Made by a program: the position numbers and the translations under genes | The notes under the pieces: generated by a model | The model's input: only the letters and a program-made list of their open reading frames with translations | Told to the model about the DNA's origin: nothing | Databases searched by the model: none | Source of the DNA: a virus | Strand: one strand, 5' to 3' | IMG/VR virus record: IMGVR_UViG_3300017971_000026 | Span: 20,079 to 84,078 of that record | DNA length: 64,000 nucleotides | In this document: positions 40,312 to 59,921 of the stretch, piece by piece | How positions within the stretch are numbered: the stretch's first letter is position 1 | Layout of the letters: each line of letters starts with the position of its first letter

Positions 40312-40346
40312 CGCGCGGTCCAACCGGGCCCAACGCGCCATATTCC
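40312..40346 (-). promoter_or_regulatory. Type C promoter-like element
   Basis: GGAATA, N14, CGGTTGG, eight bases, ATG 40311. Further upstream lies AAAAAAGATCGAGAAAGT, shared with the site at 48722. Confidence 0.6.
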
Positions 40347-40420
40347 GCCACTTCCCAACTTTCTCGATCTTTTTTCTGATCTACCCACGACCTGCCGCCA
40401 CTACCACTGTGAGCATCGCG

Positions 40421-40454
40421 GGAAGCGCCCGGCCGCCCGGCGGGTAGACCGGGC
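40421..40454 (+). promoter_or_regulatory. Type A promoter-like element
   Basis: GGAAGC, N16, GGTAGA, six bases, ATG 40455. Divergent from the type C element of the helicase. Confidence 0.6.
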
Positions 40455-41009
40455 ATGAGCGAGAACCAGCCGGTCTACCTGACCACCCGCGAGCACCGTG
40501 CGCTGCGCGACCTGCTCACCGCGCAGATCGCCTTCGAGGACGGCGCGCCGCCCGAGCCCACCGCCGAGGAGCGGGACCACGAGATGCACGGCGTCCGCCA
40601 TCCGATCCAGGACGGCGACGAGGTCCTCTACCCGATCGCCTGCCGCAAGAACGTGATGCACCGTCGCCACGACGAGGACCTCGTGGCCTGTCGCTGGCGC
40701 GCGGACGACAAGGCGATCCAGGGCGCGGTGTCGTGCACGCTGTGTGGCAAGTGCGAGGGACCGGGGATGGTCCGACACGAGAAGCTTCGGTCGATGGTCG
40801 ACGGGACCTACCTGCCGAGCACGGCCGAGGGCGAACCATCGATTTTCGACGAGGCTGGGGCTCCGGAGCGGGCGGTGGAGATCACGACCATCCCGAAGAT
40901 CACGATCTCGCACGGCGGCGGATGGGACCCAAGGAGCGACCCGCGGGCGCATGACCCGACGCTCAACGAGTGCGTCGGGATGGTCGAGACGCTGGCCGAG
41001 AACGACTGA
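40455..41009 (+). CDS. Hypothetical Cys-containing protein
   Basis: 184 residues. A CTLCGKCEGPG cluster in the middle may bind zinc. No family recognised. Single-gene type A unit ending at a bidirectional hairpin. Confidence 0.6.
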   Translation: MSENQPVYLTTREHRALRDLLTAQIAFEDGAPPEPTAEERDHEMHGVRHPIQDGDEVLYPIACRKNVMHRRHDEDLVACRWRADDKAIQGAVSCTLCGKCEGPGMVRHEKLRSMVDGTYLPSTAEGEPSIFDEAGAPERAVEITTIPKITISHGGGWDPRSDPRAHDPTLNECVGMVETLAEND

Positions 41010-41018
41010 CCACGCAGA

Positions 41019-41048
41019 AGCGCCCGACCCCTCGCGGGACCGGGCGCT
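41019..41048. terminator. Hairpin between convergent genes
   Basis: AGCGCCCG (41019-41026) and CGGGCGCT (41041-41048) form an 8-bp stem with a 14-nt loop between the ends of the plus gene at 41009 and the minus gene at 41067. No strong T-run, so the terminator call is by position and stem. Confidence 0.5.
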
Positions 41049-41066
41049 CGTTCGAAGCTCGAAGGC

Positions 41067-41504
41067 TCAGGCGCTGCCGGGAGCGGCGAGGGCCTCGGCG
41101 AGCTCGAGCGGCATGATCGCCTTCTCGACGCGGTAGCCGGTGACGGCCGCCTGGAAGGTCAGCGTCGGCACGCCGGTCGCCGAGTAGATGACCTGAACTT
41201 CGCCGACCGCGGGCGCGGTAGTCCCGTAGACGATCGGGAAGTTGGTGACGCCGTCCTCGGACGTGACCGCGAAGATCCGGCCGGGTTCGGGGACGACGGC
41301 GCCCGACGAGTCGAGCGGGCCGTCGACGTGGGTGACCTGCGACGGCAGTCCGGTGCGGGTGGTCAGGCCCGGCACGAAGCTGGCGATGATGTCACCGAAG
41401 CCCCGGACGGGGTCGGAGTCGTCGCGCAACTGGGCGAGCGCGGTCTGCATGCGGGTGGGCTCGGTGGCCTCGTTGAGGAGGGTCTTGACGGTACGTCCTG
41501 CCAT
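41067..41504 (-). CDS. Probable head-associated structural protein
   Basis: 145 residues, beta-rich, no specific family. It follows the coat gene with a 34-nt gap and has its own ribosome site (AAAGGA about 10 nt before the ATG). Such genes often encode a decoration, stabilisation or head-closure protein. Confidence 0.5.
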   Translation of the reverse strand: MAGRTVKTLLNEATEPTRMQTALAQLRDDSDPVRGFGDIIASFVPGLTTRTGLPSQVTHVDGPLDSSGAVVPEPGRIFAVTSEDGVTNFPIVYGTTAPAVGEVQVIYSATGVPTLTFQAAVTGYRVEKAIMPLELAEALAAPGSA

Positions 41505-41538
41505 GATCTCTGGTCCTTTCTCTGCTCGAGGGTCGAGG

Positions 41539-42969
41539 CTAGTTGAGCGCCGTCTGGATCAGGCGCGCGCGCTTGTAGGCGACGCCGACCCGATCGCCGG
41601 CGGCGTTGCGGCCACCCGAGCTCGTGCCGGTGAGGCGGTTGGTCGGACAGACGTGGTCGCCGGCCCACGACCACGCGAGGGTCACGTTCTCGTTGAAGGC
41701 GTCGGTGGGCGCCTTGAGGATGAAGCGGATCCCGTCGAGGTCGATCTCGACGCCGCCGTTGGTCGCCCGCATGCCACCAACGCGACCGGCGACGCCGGCC
41801 TCGGACATGAAGGCGTTCTCGTTGAGGTGCTTCTCGCAGAGGGCGCTTTGGCCGATCACGATCGTGTTCATCAACTCGATCCCACCGGCGTTGGTGGTCT
41901 CGAGCCCGACGTCGCCGGACCCGAAGGCCAGTGGGGCCGAGGCGGGACGCGTCTGGACGAAGCTGTCCGGGTCGACGGTGTTGTCGCGCGGGACCTCGTT
42001 GTTCGCGAAGAAGGTGCAGCCAGCGGTGCGGCCAACCGCGAACTTGAGGTAGGGCGCGACGTCGAGACCCATGCCCTCGATCTGGCGCTGGAAGCTGTTG
42101 TCCAGCTGCAGTTGCTCCTCGCCGAGTGGGTCGAAGTGCACGTGGTAGTAGCCGTCAGCGCAGGGGCCGACGTTGTCGCGGCGGAGGCTCGAGATCGCCT
42201 TGCGGATCAGGTCCATCGTCAGGACCTTGCCCGCGGTGATCCCGTCCACCGTCGGTGCGCCGTTCGGCCGAATGACAACCGAGGCGTCGAGGGCGTCGAT
42301 CCGGTTGCCGGCCGCGAGGCCACCGACGGCGACGTCGAGCACGAGACGTCCGGGCCCGAGCGGGAAGTCGGTGTCATCCGGGATCGTCCCGATGATCTGC
42401 GAGCCGGCGAGCACGCCGTTGACGTTGAACTCGCGCGGGTTGGCGGACGACACCGGGACGAGCGACCCGCTCAGCGGATCCGGGGTCTCGGTGAAGCCGT
42501 TGAGGGCCGAGACTTGGACCTCGAGACCAGCGGCCAGGATCGCGTCGACGATCGCGTGGCCGGCGGAGTAGTTCTGGTAGAGCCGGTTGCGGGGCAGCCG
42601 GTTGAGCACCTGAGCGGCCGCGAGCGAGAACTTGTGCTGCTTCTCGAGGTACGGGCTGATCGCGGTGACGTAGTTCGACGGCATGTGAACCTGCGTCTTG
42701 TCGCCGTACAGGTTCATCGTCGCCTTGTACTTCTCGTAGTCGAGCTGCGCGAAGCCGGGCTCGACGGCGGGATTCCGAGGCTTGGTCCGTGCCCGGAACA
42801 GGCCCGGGTTGAGGAACTCCATGGTCTGACCCGCTCGGGCCTCCCAACGTTCGCGGTGCGCCGCGGCACGAAAGAGAAGCCCGGGGAACAGGGCCTCACC
42901 GATCGAACGCGCGATCGTGCGGTCCTGGATGATCTTGTCGAGGTTGGCGTTGCCGATGAGGATGTTCAT
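41539..42969 (-). CDS. Major capsid protein
   Basis: 476 residues, the size of a coat protein, with scaffold gene directly upstream. RERWEARAGQTMEFLNPGLF in the N-arm, a long helical spine region (YLEKQHKFSLAAAQVLNRLP), GKVLTMDLIRKAISSLRRDN and many beta loops fit an HK97/P22-like coat. It starts at ATG 42969 behind AGGAGACCTCGA, a clear ribosome site that lies in a hairpin. Confidence 0.7.
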   Translation of the reverse strand: MNILIGNANLDKIIQDRTIARSIGEALFPGLLFRAAAHRERWEARAGQTMEFLNPGLFRARTKPRNPAVEPGFAQLDYEKYKATMNLYGDKTQVHMPSNYVTAISPYLEKQHKFSLAAAQVLNRLPRNRLYQNYSAGHAIVDAILAAGLEVQVSALNGFTETPDPLSGSLVPVSSANPREFNVNGVLAGSQIIGTIPDDTDFPLGPGRLVLDVAVGGLAAGNRIDALDASVVIRPNGAPTVDGITAGKVLTMDLIRKAISSLRRDNVGPCADGYYHVHFDPLGEEQLQLDNSFQRQIEGMGLDVAPYLKFAVGRTAGCTFFANNEVPRDNTVDPDSFVQTRPASAPLAFGSGDVGLETTNAGGIELMNTIVIGQSALCEKHLNENAFMSEAGVAGRVGGMRATNGGVEIDLDGIRFILKAPTDAFNENVTLAWSWAGDHVCPTNRLTGTSSGGRNAAGDRVGVAYKRARLIQTALN

Positions 42970-42974
42970 TCGAG

Positions 42975-43009
42975 GTCTCCTGGTCGAGTGGCGAAGGTGG
43001 CCAGGAGAC
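42975..43009 (-). promoter_or_regulatory. Hairpin containing the capsid ribosome-binding site
   Basis: In the minus-strand RNA GTCTCCTGG (43009-43001) pairs perfectly with CCAGGAGAC (42983-42975), loop 17 nt. The 3' arm holds the AGGAG of the major capsid gene, whose ATG follows 5 nt later, so folding would mask it. Confidence 0.6.
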
Positions 43010-43026
43010 GGGGGCGCGCGTGTAGG

Positions 43027-43743
43027 TCAGTGGAAGATCCCGAGGCTTCGCTTGTGGGCTGCCCACTCGGCGGTGGACATGGCCATCGCGTCCTTGCCGG
43101 GTGGCGCGGACGGAGGAGCGGGGGCGACGGTCGCACCGCGAGGCGCCGACGATCCCGAGGTCGTTGTGGTCGCGGACGCAGACGGAGCCGCTTGGCGGAA
43201 CAGGGCCGGGTGAGCGGCTGCGAGGTCCGGGATCACCGTGGCGAACTTGCCGTCGGGAGCCATCCGCTTCGCGCGCTCGTAGGCAAGCTTCTCGAAGTCG
43301 GGATCGTCGGCCAGCTGGTGGGCCGACGATCCGAGGGCTCGGAGGAAATCGATCCGAGCGTCGGCGTCCTTCTTGTCCGCCTCGGCGCGGGCCTTCTCGG
43401 CGGCGAGCCTCGTCTTGTGAGCGCGCTCGTCCTCGAGCATCCGCTGCAGACGCTGCTGCTCGGTCATCGCTGCGAGCTCGGCCTCCTTCTTCGCGGCGGC
43501 CTCCAACTCGGAGATCGCCTCCGCCTTCGCGGCTTGGCGATCCTGCTCGGCCTGCGCCGCCATGGCTTCGCGCTCCTGGGCCAGCTTGGCCTCGAGCGCC
43601 GCGCGGAACACCGGGTCCTGCATGGGGTCGGGATCCGGGGCCGGCGGCTGAGCGGCCTCAACGACCGGTGGCTCCGGGGCGGGCTCGGCCGTTGGCGCGG
43701 GCTCCGGGGCGGGCGTGTCGGGGATCTGATCGTCGACGTCCAT
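43027..43743 (-). CDS. Capsid scaffold protein
   Basis: 238 residues. A Pro/Ala/Glu-rich N-terminus (about 1-40) is followed by a long charged coiled coil (about 45-135, for example LEAAAKKEAELAAMTEQQRL), then a flexible Ala/Ser/Pro stretch and a basic end. This is the classic scaffold layout, immediately before the coat gene. ATG follows TAGGCT and seven bases (type B). Confidence 0.75.
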   Translation of the reverse strand: MDVDDQIPDTPAPEPAPTAEPAPEPPVVEAAQPPAPDPDPMQDPVFRAALEAKLAQEREAMAAQAEQDRQAAKAEAISELEAAAKKEAELAAMTEQQRLQRMLEDERAHKTRLAAEKARAEADKKDADARIDFLRALGSSAHQLADDPDFEKLAYERAKRMAPDGKFATVIPDLAAAHPALFRQAAPSASATTTTSGSSAPRGATVAPAPPSAPPGKDAMAMSTAEWAAHKRSLGIFH

Positions 43744-43756
43744 CGCGCCAAGCCTA
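43744..43756 (-). promoter_or_regulatory. Type B promoter-like element of the head operon
   Basis: TAGGCT, seven bases, ATG 43743. Confidence 0.45.
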
Positions 43757-43764
43757 CACCACGA

Positions 43765-44178
43765 TCAAACCGTGTCGCCAGCCGCGTACCACTCGATCGT
43801 CCCCTGGCCCTGGACCTCGATGGTCGTCAGGCGGTCATCCGCGGCGAACTCGAACAGGATCGACCCGCTCAGCGATGGAAGCGTGGTGACGCCGGCGAGC
43901 TCGGTCGTCAGGCGGACGACGAACGGCGAGAGCGTCTGAACGCGCAGGTAGAACACCCGCGCGGCCATCGACGCCGGGATCCCCAGGTCCTCGAAGGCGG
44001 GTGCGACCGAGTCGATCGGCCTGACCATCGAGGACTCCTCCTGGGCAGCCGCGGCGTTGCTCGACTTGAGCGCGAGCTGGAACGTCGGGCCGCTGGACGT
44101 GCTGCCGACGCCGTTGCAGCTCGCGGGGGCGGACTTGAGTGATCCCTTGAGCGTGATCGAGATGTCGCCGGCGGCCAT
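43765..44178 (-). CDS. Putative virion protein
   Basis: 137 residues, beta-strand-rich with short charged helices, no Cys. TAGACT and seven bases precede its ATG (type B). Located at the head operon; family not recognised. Confidence 0.5.
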   Translation of the reverse strand: MAAGDISITLKGSLKSAPASCNGVGSTSSGPTFQLALKSSNAAAAQEESSMVRPIDSVAPAFEDLGIPASMAARVFYLRVQTLSPFVVRLTTELAGVTTLPSLSGSILFEFAADDRLTTIEVQGQGTIEWYAAGDTV

Positions 44179-44188
44179 GCCCGCGAGT

Positions 44189-44248: not shown

Positions 44249-44511
44249 GCCGTCGGCCCCATGACCGCGCGCAGCTCGTCGCCCGTCGGGAGCAGGTCAC
44301 CCGGGTCGCAGTCGAGCGCGATCGCCAGGGCGCACAGCGAGTTGAGGCTCGGGCACGTGTCGCCCTTCTCGTAGACGCAGATCGACGGACCGCTGATGAA
44401 GCAGCGCTCGGCGAGGGCGACCTGGGACATGCGCGCCTCGACCCGCCGGCGCTTGACCTCGCGACCGATCAACTCGGCGAGCGGGTAGTTCAGGACGTTC
44501 GAGCTAGCCAC
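44245..44511 (-). CDS. XRE-family helix-turn-helix regulator
   Basis: 88 residues. VKRRRVEARMSQVALAERCF followed by ISGPSICVYEKGDTCPSLNS and LCALAIALDCDPGDLLP is a canonical Cro/C1-type domain. GTG 44511 overlaps the DUF5131 stop. Second-last gene of the 46778-44189 operon and adjacent to the head operon, so it may time late expression. Confidence 0.75.
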   Translation of the reverse strand: MASSNVLNYPLAELIGREVKRRRVEARMSQVALAERCFISGPSICVYEKGDTCPSLNSLCALAIALDCDPGDLLPTGDELRAVMGPTA

Positions 44512-46108
44512 GGTCGGGCATCTCCCGCACGCGGAGATCCTCGGGCCATTCCGCAGGGTCTGCGCCCTTGCTCGAGCGAAGCTTCGGGATCCAGCCCTCG
44601 GCCGGGAACGGGTGGCCGCCGGTCTGCGCGTCCCAGTCGTGTGCCGCCTCGTTGCCGAGGTCGTCATCGGTCCGCGCGAGAGGCTTCGATCCGAGTTGCT
44701 TGACAAAACATGGAACCGACGCGGCCGCGCACTGCTCGACGATCGACCGGATCCACGCGACCTCGCACGGTCGCGCCTTGGGGCCGCCCTCTCCCCCGCA
44801 AATTATCCAAGATGGCCCCACCGATCGCCGCGCAGAATCTTCGATACCGTCTGGTGTGCGCAGCCCACAATCTCGCCGATCTTCGCCTGGGTCAGGCCTG
44901 TCTCCCGCAGCGCCCGGATCTTCCGAATATCGGCGTCGGTCAGGCGCGACGCGTTGTTCTTCGAGCCCTTCTGGCACATCTTGCCGAGCACTGATCGAGC
45001 ATGGATCAGCTGCTCGCTGTAGGTCGCGGTCTCCAGGTTCTCGGGGCGGTTGTCGTCCTTGACCCCGTTGATGTGATTGATCGTAAGGCCGGCTGGGATC
45101 GGGCCGCGGAAGTGAAGATAGACGAGCCTGTGCGCGAGGGCGTGGTGCCTGACCCGATCGAGCATCACCCTCACCTGCAAGTAGCCAGCTCCGGTCGGGT
45201 TCTCGGCTCGCCTCGGGTCGCACGGCCGGATGGTCGGAGTCGTGCCCCATCGGCTTCCCCTCCGGATAGCTATTTTCCACACTGACCCGTCGTCGCGTAT
45301 CTCCAAAAGCCCCATTCGGACCGCGTCGTAGGCCAGCTCCTCGCGATTCATCGATGCGACCATGGACTGGACTATGCCCGAGCCATTCTCCCAAGTCCAG
45401 CGGACCGAGTAGCGGCTCGCAGCTCAAGAACCGCAGCGCCGCGGGTACGCGCAGCAGCTCGGGGATCCGCTCGTCGGCGCGAGGCTGGTCCTCGACGCTC
45501 GTCCCGACCCAGATGTTTCGGCGAGGCCAATGGCCGTCGACGAGACGTTCGCCGAAATCCACGCCGTGTTCCTCGGCACAGCCAACACAGAACTCGACCT
45601 GGCCGCCGACGGGAGCGACGCTGTCCAGCCAGTCAAACCACGCGCGCGCCTTCGCCGGCCGCTTCGTCAGGCATTGAAATGTGTGCTGCGGCGTCGCGGC
45701 CATGACCCCGAAGATCGCGGCGATGAATCGGCGCCCCTCCTCGCAGTCGACGAGGCTCTCGTGGAAGATGTCGCTCAGCGAGTTGACGAACCACGTTGTC
45801 GACTTCTTGCGCTTGAGCGGGACGTCGAGTTGCCACGGGAGCAAGCGAAGCTCGCCGGTCCACTGGGCCCCCTTGCCGAGCGACTTGCCGTCGGGCGAGC
45901 GCGGCACGAAGGTCATGCCTGGTCGCTTCGCCTTGCCTCGGATCACGACGACGCCATCGCGCTCGTACACCGACTTGAAGCGGTGCGGGCTGTCGCCCTG
46001 GGCATAGCAAAAATCGCACCCGGGGCTGACCTTCGAGCATCCGACGATCGGGTTCCAGGTCTTGCCGGGCGTGCCGTCGGCGTTCTGAGTCCACTGGATC
46101 TTAGTCAT
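44504..46108 (-). CDS. DUF5131 (phage Gp37/Gp68) family protein with an in-frame insertion
   Basis: 534 codons, but only about 345 belong to the family. The N-terminal part has TWNPIVGCSKVSPGCDFCYA, a CxxC-type radical-SAM-like opening, FVNSLSDIFHE and FLSCEPLLGPLDL. The C-terminal part resumes at SWIICGGEGGPKARP and FVKQLGSK. Roughly 185 codons between them (about 45360-44813) are the shadow of the HNH gene in another frame and make no family sense. The frame stays open throughout, so either a protein with a foreign insert is made or the gene is inactive unless the insert is removed. Confidence 0.7.
   Translation of the reverse strand: MTKIQWTQNADGTPGKTWNPIVGCSKVSPGCDFCYAQGDSPHRFKSVYERDGVVVIRGKAKRPGMTFVPRSPDGKSLGKGAQWTGELRLLPWQLDVPLKRKKSTTWFVNSLSDIFHESLVDCEEGRRFIAAIFGVMAATPQHTFQCLTKRPAKARAWFDWLDSVAPVGGQVEFCVGCAEEHGVDFGERLVDGHWPRRNIWVGTSVEDQPRADERIPELLRVPAALRFLSCEPLLGPLDLGEWLGHSPVHGRIDESRGAGLRRGPNGAFGDTRRRVSVENSYPEGKPMGHDSDHPAVRPEASREPDRSWLLAGEGDARSGQAPRPRAQARLSSLPRPDPSRPYDQSHQRGQGRQPPREPGDRDLQRAADPCSISARQDVPEGLEEQRVAPDRRRYSEDPGAAGDRPDPGEDRRDCGLRTPDGIEDSARRSVGPSWIICGGEGGPKARPCEVAWIRSIVEQCAAASVPCFVKQLGSKPLARTDDDLGNEAAHDWDAQTGGHPFPAEGWIPKLRSSKGADPAEWPEDLRVREMPDRG
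44803..45363 (-). CDS. HNH homing endonuclease nested in the DUF5131 gene
   Basis: 186 residues. YLQVRVMLDRVRHHALAHRL and LTINHINGVKDDNRPENLE are the HNH_3 core. The C-terminal TDADIRKIRALRETGLTQAK, then IGEIVGCAHQTVSKIL, is a helix-turn-helix for target binding. ATG and stop coincide with the two breakpoints in the DUF5131 gene; the stop overlaps the first resumed codons. At 561 nt the gene fills the insertion, leaving no room for a group I ribozyme. Confidence 0.8.
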   Translation of the reverse strand: MVASMNREELAYDAVRMGLLEIRDDGSVWKIAIRRGSRWGTTPTIRPCDPRRAENPTGAGYLQVRVMLDRVRHHALAHRLVYLHFRGPIPAGLTINHINGVKDDNRPENLETATYSEQLIHARSVLGKMCQKGSKNNASRLTDADIRKIRALRETGLTQAKIGEIVGCAHQTVSKILRGDRWGHLG

Positions 46109-47505: not shown

Positions 47506-48327
47506 CGCGAGTAGCAGGTCGAGCAGCGAGCGGATCGCTACCGCGGCTTGCTGGGGCACGCATCCGTTGCCGGTGGCCCGGAGTCGACTTCGCCGCGAGG
47601 CCCTGGCCAGGTCCACCCCAGCGGCCAGCCCATCAACCACTCGACCCACGTCGGGTTCAGCTTCCCAGACCGCCCAGGGCCCGTCGGGTCCCCATTGTCC
47701 CCCGTGACCGCGTCGGTCAGGCTCGTCCCCGCGTGGGCGTTGCTCGTGCTGTAGTTCCGCGAGCCCGACGCCTTCGCGTCGCCCGCTGTCGGCGTCGGCC
47801 ACATGGCCACGGCGGTCCGAAGGCTTGGTCCACCTTGCCGATCCCCGTCGCCTGCACCATTCGCGTCCGATGTCGTCGGCGTCGGGAGCAACGGCAACGA
47901 CGAACACGCGGTCGCGTCGGTGGGGAGCTCCGACGTCGGCAGCTCGCAGGCACCGCCAGGCCCCCACATACCCGCGGTCGGCCAGGTCGGCGAGCACTTG
48001 CCCAAACGCGAGCGCGCGAGACGACGTGAGTAGGCCGCGGACGTTCTCCAACACCACGAGTCGGGGTCCCACCTCGCCGATGATCCGGTCGATGTCGGTC
48101 CAAAGCCAGCGAGCGTCAGTTGTCCCCCTGCGCTTACCCGCCTGGCTGAACGGCTGGCAGGGGAAGCCGGCAGAGACGAGATCCACTCGGCCACGCCACG
48201 GGCGGCCGTCGAAGGTGGCAACGTCATCCCAGACAGGAGCCGGGGCCAGGTCGCCGTCCTGCATGCGTGCCGCCAGGACCCCCGCGACAAAGGCTTCGCG
48301 TTCGACGTAACAGACAGTCGATGCTCC
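47479..48327 (-). pseudogene. 5-cytosine DNA methyltransferase lacking its N-terminus
   Basis: The open stretch begins at GASTVCYVEREAFVAGVLAA and has the catalytic GFPCQPFSQAG, LVVLENVRGLL, RRDRVFVVA and terminal RATGNGCVPQQAA motifs. The first 30-40 residues of the family, with the SAM-binding DLFxGxGG motif, are missing. Upstream of 48327 the DNA is the coding sequence of the gene at 48721 in another frame, so a deletion or recombination has joined the two. No good start codon precedes the homology (ATG 48429 is in foreign sequence, ATG 48264 is internal). Probably inactive unless joined by frameshifting. Confidence 0.6.
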
Positions 48328-48721
48328 GGTCGAGGTCGTCGTCGTCGAGGATCTCCGCGCCGTCGGCGTAGTAGTCGTAGGGGAACCGCTCGCGGTAGAG
48401 GGCGTCGAGGTCTCGGTCGAGCGCCGCATCGCCGTCGTGGTCGATGTAGAGCGTGGGAGTCGCCCGCGAGGTCGATCGGTAGGTGATCGACCGAGTATCG
48501 GACTGGACCGATCCGGCCTCGCGGATGTCGCGGACAAAGCGCTCGCGGCCACCCTTCCCCGCGTAGCACGCGGGGATCTCGCGCAGTTGGTGCGCGAACA
48601 TGCCCTCGGGCCAGGTCTGGCGGCTGTCGTCCTGGCGAAGCGTGAGCTGCGCGAGGAGATCGCCGAGGCGAGCGAGGGCGGGGTCGGAGACGGGGTTCCG
48701 GGTGGTGATGGTCTTCGTCAT
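48224..48721 (-). CDS. Hypothetical protein, fused or truncated at its C-terminus
   Basis: 165 codons, of which about 131 look genuine (to LDDDDLDRSI near 48330). The remaining Arg/Gly-rich residues are the shadow of the methyltransferase. No family recognised. ATG set by a type C element. The original end of this gene has been lost in the same event that truncated the methyltransferase. Confidence 0.5.
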   Translation of the reverse strand: MTKTITTRNPVSDPALARLGDLLAQLTLRQDDSRQTWPEGMFAHQLREIPACYAGKGGRERFVRDIREAGSVQSDTRSITYRSTSRATPTLYIDHDGDAALDRDLDALYRERFPYDYYADGAEILDDDDLDRSIDCLLRRTRSLCRGGPGGTHAGRRPGPGSCLG

Positions 48722-48756
48722 CGCGTGGCCTAACCGGGCTCTCCCGATCTTCTTCC
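48722..48756 (-). promoter_or_regulatory. Type C promoter-like element
   Basis: GGAAGA, N14, CGGTTAG, eight bases, ATG 48721; preceded by AAAAAAGATCGAGAAAGT as at 40312. Confidence 0.55.
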
Positions 48757-48781
48757 CGACTTTCTCGATCTTTTTTCGCGC

Positions 48782-50480: not shown

Positions 50481-50767
50481 CACGCGAGCCCTCCTGGCGT
50501 CGAGATCTTCAGGACGACCTCGCGCAGGAACGTCCAGTCAGCTGAACAGGCCGGGAGGCCGAGGTCGCGGACATTCATCGCGGTCACCGGATCGGCATAG
50601 AGCCGAGCCTCGTTCGCCCAGCACTCGCGCACCTTCTGTTCGGCTGCATCTACTCCCGCGATCCCCTCATTCATGTCTTGGGTCGTCTCGGCGGCTTCGG
50701 CGGCCTGCCATGCGCGGTCGTAGTCGGCGACGGCTCGCGCGGTGTTCGTATACTTGGATGTGCTCAC
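50480..50767 (-). CDS. Hypothetical helical protein
   Basis: 95 residues, mostly helix; GTG in a GTGA overlap. No domain recognised. Confidence 0.5.
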   Translation of the reverse strand: MSTSKYTNTARAVADYDRAWQAAEAAETTQDMNEGIAGVDAAEQKVRECWANEARLYADPVTAMNVRDLGLPACSADWTFLREVVLKISTPGGLA

Positions 50768-51060
50768 GCGTCACCTCGCAGCCAGCGCACGAGCGCGTCG
50801 AGGTCGTCGTCGAGAGTGTCGAGCCGCTTCCGATGCGTCTTGCGCGCTGCGAACGGCCCACCGTTGCGCGTGTGCAGCCAGCTTCGGTTGTCCGGGTCGG
50901 CGACGATCCAGGCCACGCGCCCGGTCGCGGTGCGGTCTTCGCGGTAGCCGATCGCCAGCACCGTCGCCTCGTCGACAACGAGCAGCTGCACGCGGTCCGC
51001 GCTGTAGGAGTAGGCGCCGGCGATGTCGCGGGCGGTGAAGTTGGAGATCGGGGTGCTCAT
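50764..51060 (-). CDS. Hypothetical protein
   Basis: 98 residues. A basic central part with Trp-rich strands (VAWIVADPDNRSWLHTRNGG) and an acidic end. First gene of the run 51060-48782, led by a type C element. Confidence 0.55.
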   Translation of the reverse strand: MSTPISNFTARDIAGAYSYSADRVQLLVVDEATVLAIGYREDRTATGRVAWIVADPDNRSWLHTRNGGPFAARKTHRKRLDTLDDDLDALVRWLRGDA

Positions 51061-51095
51061 CGGTCGCGCTAACCGCGTGATCGCTGGGCTATTCC
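51061..51095 (-). promoter_or_regulatory. Type C promoter-like element
   Basis: GGAATA, N14, CGGTTAG, eight bases, ATG 51060. Confidence 0.6.
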
Positions 51096-51643: not shown

Positions 51644-52300
51644 ATGAGCAAGCCGAAGCGACCACCCCTCACGCACGCGGTCCGCCCTTCGACCGGGACG
51701 CCGCCGATGCAGGCGCCAGCGGTCTCGGTCTACGCGGCTCCTCCGCCGCAGCACCAGTTCACGCAGCCCGTGCAGCCGATCGATCTGCCACCGTCGATCA
51801 ACATCGAAGTCGACACCGAGCCCATGAGTCGAGAGCAGCGCATGTCGATGATCAAGACGCTGGTCGCCGAGCTCGACCGGTCGGAGCGCGCGCGCGTGCG
51901 GAAGCTGCTCGCCGCGCACGACTCCTTCGACGAGGTAGGGGTCGAGGTGACGGTCAACATGGGGGAGGCCCATGATCGCGTCGCCGCGGACTTTGCCAGG
52001 CGGTTCGTGGCCAACGCCAAGAAGCAGCTCGTCGCCCTGACCCTCGACGTCGAACTGCTGGACGACTCGATCCAGGTCCGATGCGAGCAGTCGACGCCCG
52101 CGGGCGCGGCGATCTACGCGGCGATGTCGGACGACCTCAAGATGCTGATGGCCGACGGCGCGGTCAAGGTCGACAACATCTGCAGGATCCTCGACCGTCA
52201 CCGAGCGACGATCCGAGGCCAGGACGTGGTCGAGATCTCGATCTGGTCTGGCCCCGCGTCGGACAGTTACCTGTTGCGCGTTTGGCGGCCGGGGGAATAG
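51644..52300 (+). CDS. Hypothetical protein
   Basis: 218 residues. Pro/Gln-rich N-terminal 45 residues, then a helical region (SREQRMSMIKTLVAELDRSE) and an alpha/beta C-terminal domain. No recognised family. First plus-strand gene after the repeat region. Confidence 0.55.
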   Translation: MSKPKRPPLTHAVRPSTGTPPMQAPAVSVYAAPPPQHQFTQPVQPIDLPPSINIEVDTEPMSREQRMSMIKTLVAELDRSERARVRKLLAAHDSFDEVGVEVTVNMGEAHDRVAADFARRFVANAKKQLVALTLDVELLDDSIQVRCEQSTPAGAAIYAAMSDDLKMLMADGAVKVDNICRILDRHRATIRGQDVVEISIWSGPASDSYLLRVWRPGE

Positions 52301-52327
52301 GCCCGCGGGCTCGAGGTTGGGTCGACC
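52294..52327 (+). promoter_or_regulatory. Type C promoter-like element (variant)
   Basis: GGAATA, N14, AGGTTGG, seven bases, ATG 52328. One base shorter than the other type C sites. Confidence 0.45.
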
Positions 52328-52501
52328 ATGGACCAAAACGAGACCAAGACCACCATCGAGATCAGGCGAGGAGAGCAAGGATTCAGCGTGTGCCTGCTCC
52401 GTGAAGACGGAAGCTCGACGCTGTTCACCCGCGACCACAGCAGGGCTTCGCTGTTGGCCAAGATCGAGGAGCTACTCCTGCGTGAGGGCGCCCTCCGATG
52501 A
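52328..52501 (+). CDS. Small hypothetical protein
   Basis: 57 residues, alternating strand and helix, no family. ATGA overlap with the next gene. Confidence 0.5.
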   Translation: MDQNETKTTIEIRRGEQGFSVCLLREDGSSTLFTRDHSRASLLAKIEELLLREGALR

Positions 52502-53887: not shown

Positions 53888-53923
53888 CGATCTCGCTGGG
53901 TTGCGAAAAAGTTGGTTGATCGC

Positions 53924-53958
53924 GGAATAGGTGATGGCGGGGCCGGTTGGACCGCGCG
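53924..53958 (+). promoter_or_regulatory. Type C promoter-like element
   Basis: GGAATA, N14, CGGTTGG, eight bases, ATG 53959. The last 18 bases (CGGTTGGACCGCGCGATG) are identical to those of the helicase promoter at 40312. Confidence 0.65.
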
Positions 53959-54111
53959 ATGCCGACGAAAGACCTGCCCCGCCGCGAGGCCCAGATCCAA
54001 CGCGCCCTCGCCGGCACCCTGAGCCGCGCTCGACGCTCCGATCTGATGGCCGAGTTGTTCGAGATCTCCGAGGTCCTCGACCGCCGCATGCGCTCGCGGG
54101 GTGCGCGATGA
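53959..54111 (+). CDS. Small basic helical protein
   Basis: 50 residues, Arg-rich helices, unknown. Followed by an ATGA overlap. Confidence 0.5.
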   Translation: MPTKDLPRREAQIQRALAGTLSRARRSDLMAELFEISEVLDRRMRSRGAR

Positions 54112-54434
54112 GCACTGCATTCCCCGTCGCCTCCGTCCGCCGCATGTACGCGACTCTGTCCGTGCGAGGTCCCGCGCGCACTCGCGCCGCCTTCTGCACG
54201 GTCGTCGACATGATCGATATGGGCACGCTGACGCCCGAGGTCGTGGCCGACGTCATCCTCGGAAAGACCACGATCGCTCAGGCGGTGCGCGACGTCGCCG
54301 AGGTCATGGCCGACGGTGCCGCAGACTGCGACGACGCGGAGATCGCCGCCGACATGGAGCGCGTCGCGGCCGACTGTCGGGCGGCATCGGACGCGCTCAA
54401 CCCGATGGGCGCGGTCAGCCCTCGCGCGGCCTGA
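54108..54434 (+). CDS. Hypothetical helical protein
   Basis: 108 residues. A PEVVADVILGKTTIAQAVRD segment resembles a small helix-turn-helix but is not conclusive. End overlaps the convergent methyltransferase gene by 20 nt. Confidence 0.5.
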   Translation: MSTAFPVASVRRMYATLSVRGPARTRAAFCTVVDMIDMGTLTPEVVADVILGKTTIAQAVRDVAEVMADGAADCDDAEIAADMERVAADCRAASDALNPMGAVSPRAA

Positions 54435-55707
54435 CCAGCTGCGCCTTGCGGCCGGTCTCGCGCTCCCACCTGGCCACGGTGACGTCGCACATCGCCCGCT
54501 CCATCTCCATCGCTCGAACCCGTCGCCCGGTCCGCTCACCCGCGATGATCACAGAGCCCGATCCGTTGAAGAGGTCGAGCACGATCTCGCCCTCGTCGCT
54601 GCTGTTCTCGATCAGCTCCGCGAGCATGGCGACGGGCTTGGCCGCGTTGTGCAGGCGCTCGTCTCCGGTGGGGCGGTTGTGCCCGCGCACGACGTTGGGC
54701 TTGAACACCTGGCGATGCCCAGCGATCCGGCTGCTGGTCATCTTGTGCTTCGGCGGCTCCCGCACGAAGAACGCGATCATCTCGTAGCAATGGGCGTACA
54801 TGCTCCCAAGGCCTCCGCCCCCCTTGTCCCAGATCAGCGCGTTCTTCGGGCTCATCTTCGCGCCCTTCAGACCATCCCAGATCGTCGCCCAGCTGCGCCA
54901 GTCGCAGCACACGTAGACGTGGGCGAACTCGCGGACGCTGCCGACGATCACGAACCCGAGCCGCGCGAAGAAGGGCCGGATCATCTTGTCGTCGGCGATG
55001 TCCGCTCCGATCCCGGTCGAGCTTCCGTAGATCGCGAACGGAGGATCCATGAGCGCCATGTCTGCGATCTCGCCGTCGAGGAGAAGCGCCCGAGCGCCCT
55101 CGTCGAAGCTGTCGCCACAGACGAGGCGATGGTCGCCGAGGATCCACAGGTCGCCCGTCTGCGTGACAGGTTCCTTCGGCGGCTCGGGTAGCGGCGGCTC
55201 CTCGCCCCCCCCTTCGCCCCGCTCATGCTCGCCGACGGTCGAGACCTCCTCGAGCGGCCACTCGACGTCGAAGCCCTCAAAGTCCGCCGCCTCAAAGCCG
55301 ACGTCGCCCCAGTCGAAGTCCGGCTGCTCGCCGATCGTCTCCGCGAGCTGCTCGGGGTGCCACTCCGCGAGCTCGGCGCTGCGGTTGTCGACGATCGCCA
55401 ACTCAGCGGCCTCCTCGGGCGTCATCGGTCGAAGCTCGCCCGTCTCGGGGTCGCGGACCTTGTCGACGAAGACGGCGACGATCTGCTCGGCGCCCATGTC
55501 GATCGCTCGAGTCACGGTGCCGTTGCCGGCGATGATCACCCCGGTCGGCTCGTAGACGACGATCGGCTTGACCTGCTGGAACTTGCCGAGGCTGTGCTCG
55601 ATCACCGCGAGGTTGCGGTCGTTGTGGCGGCGTGCGTTGTGCGGGTCGAGGGTCAGGCTCGCGATGTCGACGAGCTTCGGTCGGAGGGCTGGGGCGTCAG
55701 CGTCCAC
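54415..55707 (-). CDS. ParB-like domain fused to a DNA methyltransferase
   Basis: 430 residues. Residues about 10-115 are a ParB/Srx-type domain (LTLDPHNARRHNDRNLAVIE, then VIIAGNGTVTRA). A Pro/Glu-rich linker follows, then an amino-methyltransferase domain with GDSFD, MALMDPPFAIYG (DPPF), and VLDLFNGSGSVIIAGE. Such fusions are common in phages and probably modify specific DNA sites. GTG 55707 is chosen because TATCCT lies six bases upstream; the frame is open 6 codons further. Confidence 0.78.
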   Translation of the reverse strand: MDADAPALRPKLVDIASLTLDPHNARRHNDRNLAVIEHSLGKFQQVKPIVVYEPTGVIIAGNGTVTRAIDMGAEQIVAVFVDKVRDPETGELRPMTPEEAAELAIVDNRSAELAEWHPEQLAETIGEQPDFDWGDVGFEAADFEGFDVEWPLEEVSTVGEHERGEGGGEEPPLPEPPKEPVTQTGDLWILGDHRLVCGDSFDEGARALLLDGEIADMALMDPPFAIYGSSTGIGADIADDKMIRPFFARLGFVIVGSVREFAHVYVCCDWRSWATIWDGLKGAKMSPKNALIWDKGGGGLGSMYAHCYEMIAFFVREPPKHKMTSSRIAGHRQVFKPNVVRGHNRPTGDERLHNAAKPVAMLAELIENSSDEGEIVLDLFNGSGSVIIAGERTGRRVRAMEMERAMCDVTVARWERETGRKAQLVRPREG

Positions 55708-55769: not shown

Positions 55770-55794
55770 ATCGCCAGCAAGGTAGACCACGATC

Positions 55795-56388
55795 ATGCGC
55801 ACCCACCTTCTCGCCGCCGCCCTGTTCCTCTCCGCCTGCTCGGCCCCCGTCGGCTCCGACGATGACGCCGGGGAGACGGGCGACGCTGAGATCCAGGCAT
55901 GGGCGGAGATCCGATGCACCGACACGACCTTCGGCGCGGTGGCAATGGTTCGACCGCCTGGCGAGGGCGACGCGTGGGCCTATGCGATCCACGCTGACGA
56001 GCTCGAGCGCCGGACGGATCACCTCGAGCCCGTCGACTCGTGGCCGCAGGACAGCTGCGCCGCTGGCCAAGTCCCGGAGACGTTCATGCCCGAGGTTCGC
56101 TGCTATGAATCTGATCTCAACGGACGCGTGGGCTGCTACGTCGGCGACGGGACGTGGTTCGCGGCTGCGGTGCCCGAGTGCGACCCAGACTTCGCCGGCC
56201 TGGAGTTCCGGTCACACTGGCCGGAGGATGGCTGCGCGGATCAGCACGGATCTGCGGACCCGTTCGACTCGATCTCGTGCGCGGATGGCCTCGCGTGCAT
56301 TGGCTGGTCCGGCAACGCGGCGATGCTCGTGCTACCCACCTGCGAGGTCGAGGCGAGGCCCCACCTGCCCGGCGACAGGTGCAACTAG
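55795..56388 (+). CDS. Lipoprotein
   Basis: 197 residues. Signal peptide and lipobox MRTHLLAAALFLSAC, then an Asp/Gly/Thr-rich spacer and an extracytoplasmic domain with 8 further cysteines, so probably disulfide-bonded. No family recognised. Possible roles are superinfection exclusion or lysogenic conversion. Its 3' end overlaps the convergent virion gene by 4 nt. Confidence 0.6.
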   Translation: MRTHLLAAALFLSACSAPVGSDDDAGETGDAEIQAWAEIRCTDTTFGAVAMVRPPGEGDAWAYAIHADELERRTDHLEPVDSWPQDSCAAGQVPETFMPEVRCYESDLNGRVGCYVGDGTWFAAAVPECDPDFAGLEFRSHWPEDGCADQHGSADPFDSISCADGLACIGWSGNAAMLVLPTCEVEARPHLPGDRCN

Positions 56389-58118
56389 CGGGTCGCCAGG
56401 AAGGCGTCCTTGTAGCCCTGCAGAAACAGGATCGATGTCGCTCCGCCGGCCGCTACAGTCGCCGCGAGTTGAGCCTGACCGGACGCGTCGAGGCCTACTT
56501 CGAACGTGTCGTCTGCCGCGAAGGCTGGCTGGCTGGTGTTGTCGAGTCGCACCCTGTACTCGGCGACAAGCGTCTGGTCCGCCGCTCCGGATCCAAAGTT
56601 GGCGCCGACGATCAAGGCAACGACGGCGTTGAGGTTGCCGCCCTCGAAGACCGTGCCGACCTTCGCCCACAAGGCAGCGGTCGGGAGGATCGTCGGCTCA
56701 ACGCCGGCCTGGTCCATCGACGGGAACCCGCCGGGCTTGAAGGTCGTGAGCGCCACGTCGGCCACGTCTCGGCGGATCGGCTTGGCGCCAGTGCCGGCGA
56801 CGACGTCGACCTCGTCGATCATCCAGACCTCGCCGGCTCCGCGATAGGCTTGGGCGATGAACTGGCCCCCAGTCGCAGACACGGCGCCGATGTAGACGCT
56901 CTCGGTCACGACCTGCGTGTTGCCCCACGACGGGTCCTGGGTCGCGTCGAGGGTCAGGGAGCCGCTCGTGTTGCCTCGAGCATCAACGATCCTGATCGGC
57001 GCGGTGCTGAGCGGGCCGCGGTCGATCCCGTTTGGCCCCTGGTCGTCCCAGATCGGGATGCAGTTCACGAAGGTCGGCCCCGCCTCCAGGGGCGCGAACC
57101 CGAGGCCGAGGGACGTGAAGGTCGACCCGTCGCCGAAGACGATCGAGTCCGGCGTCGCTAGGAGGTCCAGCTGGTTGGGGTTGGTGGCCTTGGCCTCGCG
57201 CGGCGCTAGAGGGCCGTAGTCTGACGCCCACGGTGGCGGTACGAGGTAGCAGTAGACCGGCCCCGTCGAGGCGAGCAGCGCCGCCGGGCTCGTCGTGTCC
57301 GGCGTGCGCGCGGTGACGGTGCCCGAGAAGCTGACGTTGCCGCGAGCTCGCGCAGGGATCCCCAGCAACTCGACCCGGGCGTCGTGGATCTCAGGCAGCT
57401 GCAGCGCGCCGAAGGTGCCGCCGGCCTCCTCGCCCACGCTGATCCCACCGCCCTCGATCGTCCGGTCCGCGATCAAGGTCTTGCCCGACGCGGCGAGCAG
57501 CGGTCGGCAGCACATGACCGGAAGGCGGTCGTCCGAGAACGCCGCCAGGCCCGTCGAGAGCTTGACGATCGCCAGCGGGATGAAGCCCGAGACGCCGGGA
57601 CCCGCCGCGACCTGTGGCGAAGCTCCGGCCGCTCCGGCGCGGACGTTGAAGACCGGATCGCTCCCGACGACGACGTCCTGGTTGACCGCCGCGAAGGTGC
57701 CTGTCCCCGGATCAAATACGTCGACCAGCGTATTCACCTTCGCGACCTGGTTGGCCTGGACTTCGATCGTCACGAGGCGCGGGTTGCCGCCGTCGACGAA
57801 GCTCGACAGGTCGATGACTTCCGGGTTGCGCTGCTCGATGTAGTCGATCGGTGGATCGTAGAGCGTGTCCGCCGGCGTCTCGGGGACGAACGCGATCCCC
57901 GGGCTGACCTCGACGGTCAGGGTGCCGGCGACGGCGCGGACGTCGAAGCCGCCGAGGACGCCACCGAGCCCAGCCGCGACGGACTTATAGGCGTCCTGCA
58001 GCTGGGCGGCCGACAGGCCTTCGAGGAGCGCCCGGTCACGCAAGCGCTCCCCGTTGTTGAAGTCGTCGCTGACCAGCCTGCGCCGCGTCCCGATCACGAC
58101 CTTGTCGATGTCCGGCAT
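56385..58118 (-). CDS. Large virion protein (tail fibre-proximal or baseplate)
   Basis: 577 residues. An N-terminal helical part (LLEGLSAAQLQDAYKSVAAG) leads into repeated beta structure with an early LTVEVSPGIAF strand, as in baseplate/fibre-attachment proteins. Many Gly/Asn turns, no Cys cluster. TAGCCT and six bases precede the ATG, the same TGATAGCCTCGCC context as the portal gene. Exact role unknown. Confidence 0.55.
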   Translation of the reverse strand: MPDIDKVVIGTRRRLVSDDFNNGERLRDRALLEGLSAAQLQDAYKSVAAGLGGVLGGFDVRAVAGTLTVEVSPGIAFVPETPADTLYDPPIDYIEQRNPEVIDLSSFVDGGNPRLVTIEVQANQVAKVNTLVDVFDPGTGTFAAVNQDVVVGSDPVFNVRAGAAGASPQVAAGPGVSGFIPLAIVKLSTGLAAFSDDRLPVMCCRPLLAASGKTLIADRTIEGGGISVGEEAGGTFGALQLPEIHDARVELLGIPARARGNVSFSGTVTARTPDTTSPAALLASTGPVYCYLVPPPWASDYGPLAPREAKATNPNQLDLLATPDSIVFGDGSTFTSLGLGFAPLEAGPTFVNCIPIWDDQGPNGIDRGPLSTAPIRIVDARGNTSGSLTLDATQDPSWGNTQVVTESVYIGAVSATGGQFIAQAYRGAGEVWMIDEVDVVAGTGAKPIRRDVADVALTTFKPGGFPSMDQAGVEPTILPTAALWAKVGTVFEGGNLNAVVALIVGANFGSGAADQTLVAEYRVRLDNTSQPAFAADDTFEVGLDASGQAQLAATVAAGGATSILFLQGYKDAFLATR

Positions 58119-58133
58119 GCGGCGAGGCTATCA
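58119..58133 (-). promoter_or_regulatory. Type B promoter-like element
   Basis: TGA-TAGCCT, six bases, ATG 58118 (minus). Confidence 0.45.
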
Positions 58134-58144
58134 CGCGAGATCAG

Positions 58145-58873
58145 CTACTCGGGCCAGCCAGCGGCCGGCTCGATGTCGTCGACCTCGACTTCACGCCCGA
58201 GTCCGTCGAGCCACGGGCCCTTGCTCTGCGGGCGCCACAGTCCCCGGCTCATGATGATCTGCGCATGGGCCTGCTCGCAGCCGCTGCCGATCAGCGTCGC
58301 GTCTAGACCACGCACCGACTCGCATCCGGCCCAGGAGATGATCCCGGGTCCCGCGCCGAAGCTCGTGCCATGTCGCTCGACGTAGCGCCAAGCCGCCTCG
58401 ACGGCCGCCGAGTGCATGTGCTGCGCCTCCGCGCGGCGGACCACGTAGGTGTGGAGGCCCCGAGCTGCGCGCGCGACCGCCTCGACGTCGAGGTCGCCGG
58501 ACTGCTGCATCGCCTTGCGGTCCTCGAGCGTCCAGTCGAGTTGGACCTCGGTCACGCTCGCGGCCTTCGAGCTGAGGTGATGCGGGAGCACGCCGATCAC
58601 GTGCTTGCCGCGGACGTTGGCGGCGTTGTGTCCGTCGGCGAGTGCTTGCGCTTCGAGCACGTCTAGATCGCGGGCGATCGTGCCGCCGCAGATCACATCG
58701 TAGACGTCACGGCGTAGGCTGATCTTGGCGGTCCGAGCATGGGCATGGGCGTGCTCGACCACGGGCGTCGAGTCGTCGATGTAGCCCTCGCGGATCAGGT
58801 ACTCGACGAGGGGAGCGTGGCGCGTGACGACGAGGTCGAAGCGCGCGGGGACGTAGGTGTTCTTGGTCTTCAT
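58145..58873 (-). CDS. Csx16-like protein (candidate cyclic-oligoadenylate ring nuclease)
   Basis: 242 residues. The N-terminal FDLVVTRHAPLVEYLIREGY and the later HVIGVLPHHLSSKAASVTEV, then QLDWTLEDR, mirror the two most conserved parts of Csx16 (VTRHxGAxxW and VIGTLPVHLAAxV...LSL). Csx16 and related small proteins degrade the cyclic tetra-adenylate signal of type III CRISPR systems. About 45 extra residues lie between the two blocks and about 80 after them. If correct, it could be a phage anti-CRISPR enzyme. The similarity was judged by eye. The context CCAGAACACGAA before the ATG is shared with the gene at 59223. Confidence 0.45.
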   Translation of the reverse strand: MKTKNTYVPARFDLVVTRHAPLVEYLIREGYIDDSTPVVEHAHAHARTAKISLRRDVYDVICGGTIARDLDVLEAQALADGHNAANVRGKHVIGVLPHHLSSKAASVTEVQLDWTLEDRKAMQQSGDLDVEAVARAARGLHTYVVRRAEAQHMHSAAVEAAWRYVERHGTSFGAGPGIISWAGCESVRGLDATLIGSGCEQAHAQIIMSRGLWRPQSKGPWLDGLGREVEVDDIEPAAGWPE

Positions 58874-58989
58874 TTTTTCGTGTTCTGGACGGCTCATCAG
58901 CGCCGGCATGTCCAAGCCGGCGGACGCCCGCAAGTGACAATGCCCTGGTCGCAGGACCATGTCTCCCAGACGGGGGCGTTTCGCCGAGG

Positions 58990-59223
58990 TCAGCGGCGGT
59001 GCACAAGTTCGACCACGGGCCCGGGATCCCGGGCGAGCCTACGGCGCACGCGTCGACACTCACGGCGAAAAGCCCTCTCGCTGCGGAGCAGCGCGAGCCG
59101 AGGAAATCGCGGGTGACCCATGGCCACCATGGTGCCAGACAGCGTGAGGCGGTAACCGCGGCGCCACAAACGGCGGCGGACGAAGTGAGCGACAGTTTTG
59201 ACGCGAGTTGAGATGTTGTTCAT
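58990..59223 (-). CDS. Small Arg-rich protein
   Basis: 77 residues with about 22 Arg (FVRRRLWRRGYRLTLSG). Likely nucleic-acid binding or membrane-active. Starts at ATG 59223 behind CCAGAACACGAA. Unknown function; sits just before the Csx16-like gene. Confidence 0.5.
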   Translation of the reverse strand: MNNISTRVKTVAHFVRRRLWRRGYRLTLSGTMVAMGHPRFPRLALLRSERAFRRECRRVRRRLARDPGPVVELVHRR

Positions 59224-59297
59224 TGTTCGTGTTCTGGCCTGGTTGGTCAGGAGCGCAGGGCGGCCAGCTCCGCGCTCGGTTGTAGTGGTAGTTCAGC

Positions 59298-59311
59298 GGG
59301 GATCGATCCCC
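59298..59311. repeat. Perfect 14-bp palindrome
   Basis: GGGGATCGATCCCC lies 8 nt after the stop of the gene at 59319. It could form a small hairpin at the operon end or be a protein-binding site; no T-run follows. Confidence 0.4.
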
Positions 59312-59318
59312 AGAAAGA

Positions 59319-59477
59319 TCAGGTCGTTGGGTACATCGACTCGGATCGGAGCCGATGGCGGACGTCTGCGACCTCGTCGCTCGGAAACACGCGCACGGCC
59401 ACTCCGTCGAGGGTCAGTCGCACGTGGTCACCGACGCGGCGCGCCCGTGCGATCGCGTCGTCGATCGACTCGCTCAC
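59319..59477 (-). CDS. Small hypothetical protein
   Basis: 52 residues (begins SESIDDAIARARRVGDHVRL). GTG in a GTGA overlap with the upstream stop. No family recognised. Confidence 0.45.
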   Translation of the reverse strand: MSESIDDAIARARRVGDHVRLTLDGVAVRVFPSDEVADVRHRLRSESMYPTT

Positions 59478-59617
59478 AGCGGGCCCTCGCAGTCGTCCGC
59501 CCAGGGGCAGCGCTCAACCGCGACCGGCAGGATCATCGTGACGAAGACGCGCCACGACCAGGCCGCGGTCGCGATCAGGCCGGAGTCGACGAGGACGTGG
59601 GCGAGCCAGTCGATCAT
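59474..59617 (-). CDS. Small membrane protein
   Basis: 47 residues with hydrophobic stretches at 4-20 and 22-34 and a short Cys-containing tail. GGGAGG lies 8 nt before the ATG, and the ATG overlaps the end of the gene at 59614. Confidence 0.45.
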   Translation of the reverse strand: MIDWLAHVLVDSGLIATAAWSWRVFVTMILPVAVERCPWADDCEGPL

Positions 59618-59886
59618 CGCCGGTCCTCCCATCGAAAGGTCGCGTGCGAATGGTCGCCGCGGCCTTCGACGATCTCGCCGGACATTGATGCTGATCCATG
59701 CAGCCCGAAGCCGCCGGGACCAGCAAGCAGAGGGTTCGGGTCAAACCCATCTCCGATGCACTCACGTCCCAGCCAATCCTCGTCCCAGCCAAGCGTCGAT
59801 TTGAGCCGCATGTCCTCCAGCTCGCGGTCGAGTCGCCCTTGGGCGATGACCTCGATCAACAGTCGCCGATCAATCTTCGTCGTCAT
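59614..59886 (-). CDS. Hypothetical protein
   Basis: 90 residues. Basic helical N-half, Gly-rich C-half (GFDPNPLLAGPGGFGLHG). Led by a type C element; first gene of the run 59886-59319. Confidence 0.5.
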   Translation of the reverse strand: MTTKIDRRLLIEVIAQGRLDRELEDMRLKSTLGWDEDWLGRECIGDGFDPNPLLAGPGGFGLHGSASMSGEIVEGRGDHSHATFRWEDRR

Positions 59887-59921
59887 CGGTCCACCCAACC
59901 GCACCCCGCCGATCTTATTTC
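59887..59921 (-). promoter_or_regulatory. Type C promoter-like element
   Basis: GAAATA, N14, CGGTTGG, eight bases, ATG 59886; an AT-rich tract with TTTTTTCGAGAT lies upstream. Confidence 0.55.

Follow-up and report, generated by a model that had tools for sequence, protein, structure and literature searches.

Genes at the locus

The window analysed here is a 64-kb stretch of DNA with 68% G+C that runs from base 20079 to base 84078 of a virus record of 84,078 bases (G000), and it is marked as part of a tailed phage by terminase, portal, DnaB-like helicase and baseplate matches in Pfam and PHROG searches. A two-box sequence, hereafter type C, lies ahead of a UvrD-like helicase gene and of small genes without a known family, as the preliminary description had proposed. 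Directly behind the UvrD gene, between it and a methyltransferase-like gene, is a gene for an extracytoplasmic function (ECF) sigma factor.

38137-40311, minus strand: UvrD-like helicase (Pfam PF00580, 3.6e-16; phrog_1967, 2.2e-79), led by type C
38101-38106, minus strand: type B (sigmaA-like) -10 box of the sigma gene, TAGGAT-N7-ATG, the same in G001
37557-38093, minus strand: ECF sigma factor with region 2 and region 4, 178 aa (Pfam; phrog_1740, 3.3e-19; solved-chain search)
36781-37560, minus strand: methyltransferase-like gene, third in the UvrD-sigma run, with an ortholog at the same place in G001
48224-48721, minus strand: type C-led gene, 165 aa, no family match
50764-51060, minus strand: first gene of a small-gene run, type C-led
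52328-52501, plus strand: small gene led by a short type C variant
53959-54111, plus strand: small gene, 50 aa, type C-led
59614-59886, minus strand: first gene of a small-gene run, type C-led

The start of UvrD is placed at 40311, since the UvrD of the near relative G001 begins at about the same place, and not at an upstream ATG at 40341, which overlaps the -35 box. The sigma ORF extends over 37557-38102, and the 178 residues are counted from the second ATG, which is the start compatible with the type B box. The same part of the window also encodes a ParB-like domain fused to an N6/N4 DNA methyltransferase (54415-55707, minus strand), a protein with a Cas_VVA1548 (CRISPR-associated) Pfam match (58145-58873, minus strand; E 3.7e-8) and a long ORF that matches DUF5131 over two stretches (44504-46108, minus strand), for which the gene caller chose shorter genes.

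Relatives of the phage

Megablast of the window against phages gave no match, and tblastn with six proteins gave distant phages only and no clear host. Scans of viral contigs with UvrD, sigma or terminase as single queries returned no usable relatives, and a scan of viral contigs for the exact type A pattern (see below) returned nothing usable. A scan with the helicase at 7921-9555 recovered a near relative, G001 (IMGVR_UViG_3300035185_000025; 81,566 bases), in which 62 of 129 genes are matched with G000. The order UvrD-sigma-methyltransferase is identical in the two phages, and the identity between them is 72% for UvrD and 38% for the sigma factor. Further relatives are G002 (IMGVR_UViG_3300009095_000001) and G003 (IMGVR_UViG_3300037755_000828), whose UvrD proteins are about 44% identical and each of which encodes an ECF sigma elsewhere in its genome. 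A genome scan returned two distant MAG loci, and a scan with the sigma pair found the known relative and no new one.

Type C sites in the window

The preliminary description had listed left edges of the type C sites without strand; the strands are assigned here.

40309-40346, minus strand: type C promoter of UvrD, GGAATA-N14-CGGTTGG-N8-ATG, with the same spacing in G001
48719-48756, minus strand: type C promoter, GGAAGA variant (pattern match)
51058-51095, minus strand: type C promoter, GGAATA (pattern match)
52294-52330, plus strand: type C promoter, GGAATA, with AGGTTGG and N7, one base shorter to the ATG (pattern match)
53924-53961, plus strand: type C promoter, GGAATA (pattern match)
59884-59921, minus strand: type C promoter, GAAATA variant (pattern match)
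40358-40375, minus strand: A-rich upstream (UP-like) element AAAAAAGATCGAGAAAGT, with the counterpart AAAAAAGATGCAGATCG in G001
48759-48776, minus strand: A-rich upstream (UP-like) element, the same 18 bases as AAAAAAGATCGAGAAAGT

The claim that five sites carry two boxes at one spacing holds exactly, with N14 and N8 at all five, and the sixth site at 52294 is indeed one base shorter. The final 18 bases of the 40309 and 53924 sites are identical as had been stated, and the upstream sequence said to be common to two sites is the A-rich element of the 40309 and 48719 sites. The -35 hexamer is GGAATA at four of the six sites and GAAATA or GGAAGA at the remaining two, and the -10 motif is GTT at all six. 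The spacer from the hexamer to GTT is 16 at every site and is thus rigid, one off the optimum of 17 of SigH, an ECF sigma factor of Mycobacterium tuberculosis. The start codon of the type C genes sits where transcription would be expected to start.

Pattern searches of the kind that had been suggested support a non-random pattern: GRAATA-N14-CGGTTRG-N8-ATG with at most three mismatches has seven matches against a mean of 0.25 and a maximum of 2 in 100 shuffles, one of the seven (47468) being a type A site and not a type C site. CGGTTRG-N8-ATG occurs five times in the 84-kb record, and the reversed-pattern control occurs zero times. The preliminary description had regarded a location mostly inside genes as evidence against the class; five of the six type C sites lie outside called genes, and the 52294 site begins within the last codons of the gene at 51707-52300. 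Matches of a looser scan inside genes (window 43605 and 55828; G001 54790) were dropped as chance. All six type C sites of G000 are confined to one arc (window 40-60 kb), whereas type A sites are spread genome-wide.

An AT-rich element upstream of type C had also been proposed. Consistently, mean upstream AT is 0.51 for 12 type C sites and 0.30 for 52 type A sites of the two phages (p = 5e-7), the type C set including one G001 site (21147) that was added by hand because it has no start codon at 34-37 nt. Beyond the boxes, the sequence CTAGYGAT...TTGCGA is common to the regions upstream of the 53924 site, the 59884 site and the G001 site 8553.

Type C in the relatives

The UvrD gene of G001 is preceded by an A-rich tract and then by GGAATA-N14-CGGTTGC-N8-ATG, with N14 and N8 as in G000. 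In G001 a loose type C scan returned six matches, of which five are intergenic. Among six C-like sites of G001, the -10 motif is GTT at four and GTA at two. Exact CGGTTRG-N8-ATG has no occurrence in G001, because the UvrD site there reads CGGTTGC and the others CGGTTGA or CGGTAT. The G001 site at 21147 (minus strand; locus L014 at 1147) has full type C boxes and no start codon at the usual distance; its next ATG is preceded by GAGGAAG, which would suit a gene that has acquired a leader.

Ahead of the G002 UvrD gene is GGAATA with N17-GTA, and no such site lies ahead of the UvrD gene of G003. The -35 box of the UvrD promoter is GGAATA in G000, G001 and G002, while the two phage pairs have different abundant classes. 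A TATAGT...ACTATA inverted repeat lies upstream of the G003 UvrD gene (L020, about 5930-5955), and similar boxes precede some G002 genes; this is perhaps an early-gene element of the G002/G003 pair.

Three proposed promoter classes

Type A, which is commoner than type C, is GGAAGC-N17-GTA, with 25 sites in G000 carrying GGGAAG-N17-GGTAG or GGTAC. Type B is TANNNT 12 nt before starts, with 27 sites each in G000 and G001, and is sigmaA-like in its sequence. One type A site faces the UvrD promoter.

40420-40457, plus strand: type A site, GGGAAG-N17-GGTAG-N7-ATG, divergent to the UvrD type C site

Type A and type C differ in -35 positions 5-6 (GC versus TA), in spacer length (17 versus 16) and in the -10 motif (GTA versus GTT). 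Both have GGAA 34/35 nt before the start codon, which suggests that they are sister ECF-type classes. The view of type C as a third grammar thus stands insofar as it is distinct from types A and B, but type C is not unrelated to type A, with which it shares an ECF frame; only type B (TANNNT) is of a different kind. Placing A and C in a single register with a T at a fixed place fails at two G001 sites with CGGTAT, and the one-base shift between A and C is accordingly real. All three types look leaderless.

The -35 box and the spacer are completely linked in G000 and G001 taken together, with GC or GT accompanied by N17 at 52 of 52 sites and TA by N16 at 10 of 10 (p = 9e-12), in a table restricted to rows with GT at index 16 or 17 and leaving out the single GGAAGA site. 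In G002 and G003, the sigma factors of which are SigH-like, GTT again goes with spacer 16 and GTC or GTA with spacer 17 (9:3 versus 1:18, p = 1e-4). Class A has no site in G002 or G003; their abundant class is similar in number, lies at the same start-codon distance and has GGAAT boxes. The gene pair g80/p2_50 is preceded by type A in G000 and by GGAATG in G002.

The classes also differ in the genes that they lead. The first genes of G000 units have a G001 match in 26 of 31 cases for type B, 8 of 22 for type A and 1 of 6 for type C, and those of G001 have a G000 match in 24 of 25, 9 of 29 and 2 of 6 cases, respectively. This suggests that the sigmaA-like boxes carry conserved core genes and that the ECF-like classes carry mostly variable small genes. 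The terminase, portal and baseplate genes are led by type B.

Of the type A sites, 8 of 23 in G000 and 8 of 24 in G001 have their box close to a divergent start, which mostly belongs to a type B gene (window 3322-4598, 30428-32166, 25015-26903 and others). Because box and divergent start adjoin, two polymerases might exclude each other there. At 33970-33971, and at 63952-63955 in G001, two type A promoters stand back to back with a common CTTCCCGGGAAG palindrome.

The phage-encoded ECF sigma factor

Sigma region 2 matches Sigma70_r2 (PF04542, 4.4e-18) with 65 bits against a cut-off of 24, and occurs once in the whole record (window 37857-38054); the same gene then encodes region 4. Region 4 matches Sigma70_r4_2 (PF08281, 3.9e-4) with 20.5 bits, below the cut-off of 25.7, and aligns without gaps with the SigH helix. 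Regions 1.1 and 3 are absent from the 178-residue protein. Among solved structures, M. tuberculosis SigH is the best-scoring relative (E 2e-12), and the alignment spans residues 7-169. A structure model of the sigma factor (mean pLDDT 61.7) was set aside. In the SigH/sigmaR group, a zinc anti-sigma factor with the motif HxxxCxxC is encoded next to the sigma gene; this motif is absent from the neighbours of the phage sigma and is found in G000 only in g29, far away.

The -35 recognition helix is identical between G000 and G001 at 13 of 15 positions, compared with 50 of 152 elsewhere in the protein. At the place of SigH M181, the residue is H in G000, D in G001 and M in G002 and G003; at that of S182, it is G in G000 and G001 and S in G002 and G003. 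T76 of the SigH specificity loop is replaced by A in the G000 and G001 proteins. TAGGAT-N7-ATG, which is the type B form, precedes the sigma start in both G000 and G001. No GGAA box lies ahead of the sigma genes of G002 and G003.

The presence of a sigma factor was compared with that of GGAA boxes by scoring all tetramers at every distance of 15-60 nt before the ATG of ORFs with 60 codons or more. At 34/35 nt, GGAA ranks first in G000, G001 and G003 and third in G002 (p 7e-24 to 7e-9); the first-ranked tetramer of G002 is GAAT at 33/34, which is the same box. Among 13 other viral records searched for region 2, two were positive (G002 and G003) and 11 negative. Six of the negatives, all UvrD-bearing phage records, served as controls, and none of the six shows an enrichment of GGAA at 34/35 nt (p 0.15-0.84); their G+C content is lower (0.56-0.65). 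The other negatives were left out: G004 and G005 (similar and short), G009 (a 10.9-kb fragment), G007 (44.8 kb) and G013 (locus with 33% G+C). Because the four positives are related, they represent one or two independent events rather than four.

Which sigma factor reads type C

Type C is very probably an ECF-type promoter class. Its sites would be leaderless or nearly so, with GGAATA as the -35 box, a spacer of 16 bp, GTT as the -10 motif, an A-rich UP-like tract further upstream and a start codon near +1. Whether it is read by the phage's own ECF sigma in an autoregulated manner is a closer question, on which we come down slightly on the favourable side of even. This reading is favoured by the place of the sigma gene behind UvrD, a type C consensus like that of SigH, a recognition helix that is conserved between G000 and G001, the co-occurrence of sigma factor and GGAA boxes, and the recurrence in G002 and G003 of the pairing of -10 motif and spacer. 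Transcription of the sigma gene would begin with the host sigmaA polymerase at the gene's own TAGGAT box; the type C promoter ahead of UvrD would then add to it, which would close a positive loop, and the same sigma probably serves the sister class A as well. ECF-type promoters would thereby switch on variable accessory genes, and host-sigmaA type B promoters would carry the conserved core genes. The promoter activity, the leaderless transcripts, the reading of type C by the phage sigma, the loop and the time order are what we infer from the arrangement of the sequence. The absence of a GGAA box ahead of the G002 and G003 sigma genes suggests that the loop is not general. Several observations speak against the phage sigma: the -35 box and the spacer are completely linked in G000 and G001, the residues at the places of M181 and S182 have changed, the type C spacer is 16 and not the SigH-favoured 17, the UvrD gene of G003 has no such site and that of G002 has GGAATA with N17-GTA, and region 4 scores below the Pfam cut-off.

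The view that the phage sigma must read type C by virtue of gene position became less certain after the recognition residues were compared, and both readings are kept. According to the passages on the SigH structure in PMC6411747, M181 helps set positions -31/-30 and S182 reads G-33. M and S are retained in G002 and G003, where the boxes are GGAAT[AG]; G000 and G001 have H-G and D-G and the abundant class GGAAGC. The changed residues together with GGAAGC suggest that class A has shifted along with the sigma factor. Type C would then be left either to the same sigma with a loosened choice, as in the M181A mutant, or to a host SigH-like sigma.

A putative host ECF sigma of the SigH/sigmaR type that reads type C, with the phage sigma reading type A only, is the strongest rival, and we regard it as unlikely. 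Type C fits the canonical SigH consensus (GGAAYR, GTT), type A departs from it where the contact residues have changed (M181 to H or D, S182 to G, T76 to A), and the UvrD promoter keeps GGAATA in three phages with differing abundant classes. The complete linkage of -35 box and spacer also suits two readers better than one. However, G000 with H and G001 with D have the same boxes, so that this residue need not set the boxes, and G002 uses GTC with an unchanged loop, which weakens the loop argument. The rival invokes a putative host sigma on the basis of phage sequences, and bacterial ECF sigma factors are usually kept inactive in the absence of stress. On this rival the phage would use three programmes, with host sigmaA serving the core genes, its own ECF sigma class A, and a host stress sigma UvrD-sigma-methyltransferase and the small variable genes. 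A form of it in which the phage ECF sigma has been re-specified, and the UvrD-sigma-methyltransferase operon and a variable gene set answer to the stress state of the host, is quite unlikely.

A phage sigma restricted to type C, with type A left to some other factor, is very unlikely. Type C lies ahead of the sigma operon, an arrangement known from autoregulated ECF systems, and the phage sigma is close to SigH, both of which would agree with this. However, G002 and G003 have a GGAAT class in place of class A, and the g80/p2_50 pair has A in G000 and GGAATG in G002, which suggests that A is the drifted sigma class. It is highly improbable that the boxes serve as the operator of a phage repressor or activator: a LuxR-type HTH gene lies at 22520-22915 and upstream tracts are duplicated between sites, but the spacing to the start codon is fixed, the two boxes stand in an ECF frame and, among the phages compared, are present only together with a sigma gene, and the LuxR-type gene has no match in G001, although G001 keeps type C. 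The LuxR-type protein itself (plus strand; GerE, 4.1e-15) has a homolog in G003 and no match in G001 or G002.

On the reading in which the phage sigma serves types A and C, the virus seems to have a sigma-factor programme of its own, by which its variable accessory genes would be expressed.

Comparison with known systems

The promoters of M. tuberculosis SigH and Streptomyces coelicolor sigmaR resemble type C in having a GGAA -35 box, a GTT -10 motif and a rigid spacer. The SigH consensus is given in PMC4803200 as GGAAYR-N17-GTT with some spacing tolerance. Type C differs in that its spacer is 16 and not 17, it is phage-borne and its start codon lies at about +1 at every site. The phage sigma lacks M181 and S182 and has no anti-sigma motif adjoining its gene. 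The actinobacterial leaderless sigmaA promoters with TANNNT resemble type B, in which TANNNT lies 12 nt before the start codon, and are unlike type C, which has no such box.

Few phages are known to encode ECF-type sigma factors. Sigma factors called ECF have been described in phiEco32, its relatives and Privateer, and a distant one in 7-11 (PMC8948821, PMC4331800, PMC4281155 and PMC7881722). The promoters of phiEco32 and 7-11 were hard to find from sequence. In the four related phages described here, the sequence reveals a full ECF-type promoter set along with the sigma genes, and in one pair of them the recognition residues and the abundant -35 box are both changed. This makes sigma-promoter co-evolution directly testable, and likewise the hanging of variable genes on a phage genome by leaderless promoters. 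Among the open-licence papers searched, none describes such a leaderless phage arrangement of ECF and TANNNT promoters in its title or in the opening of its abstract.

Like 7-11 gp47 and phiEco32 gp36, as far as the accounts of these proteins go, the sigma factor here would be a phage ECF-type sigma that redirects the host polymerase to short promoters of its own. The 7-11 promoters are bipartite, GTAAtg-(16)-aCTA, and lead late genes according to PMC8948821 and PMC7881722. In phiEco32 and 7-11, such promoters lead middle or late genes and are present in few copies. In contrast, the present phage has two sister classes with about 30 sites, which lead mostly variable small genes and look leaderless. 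A sigma gene of the phiEco32/7-11 kind would be served by both host-type and phage-type promoters; here a TAGGAT box lies at the sigma gene and type C ahead of UvrD, and both may serve it. The core genes stay on sigmaA-like boxes, and the structural genes, unlike the late genes of 7-11, are led by type B.
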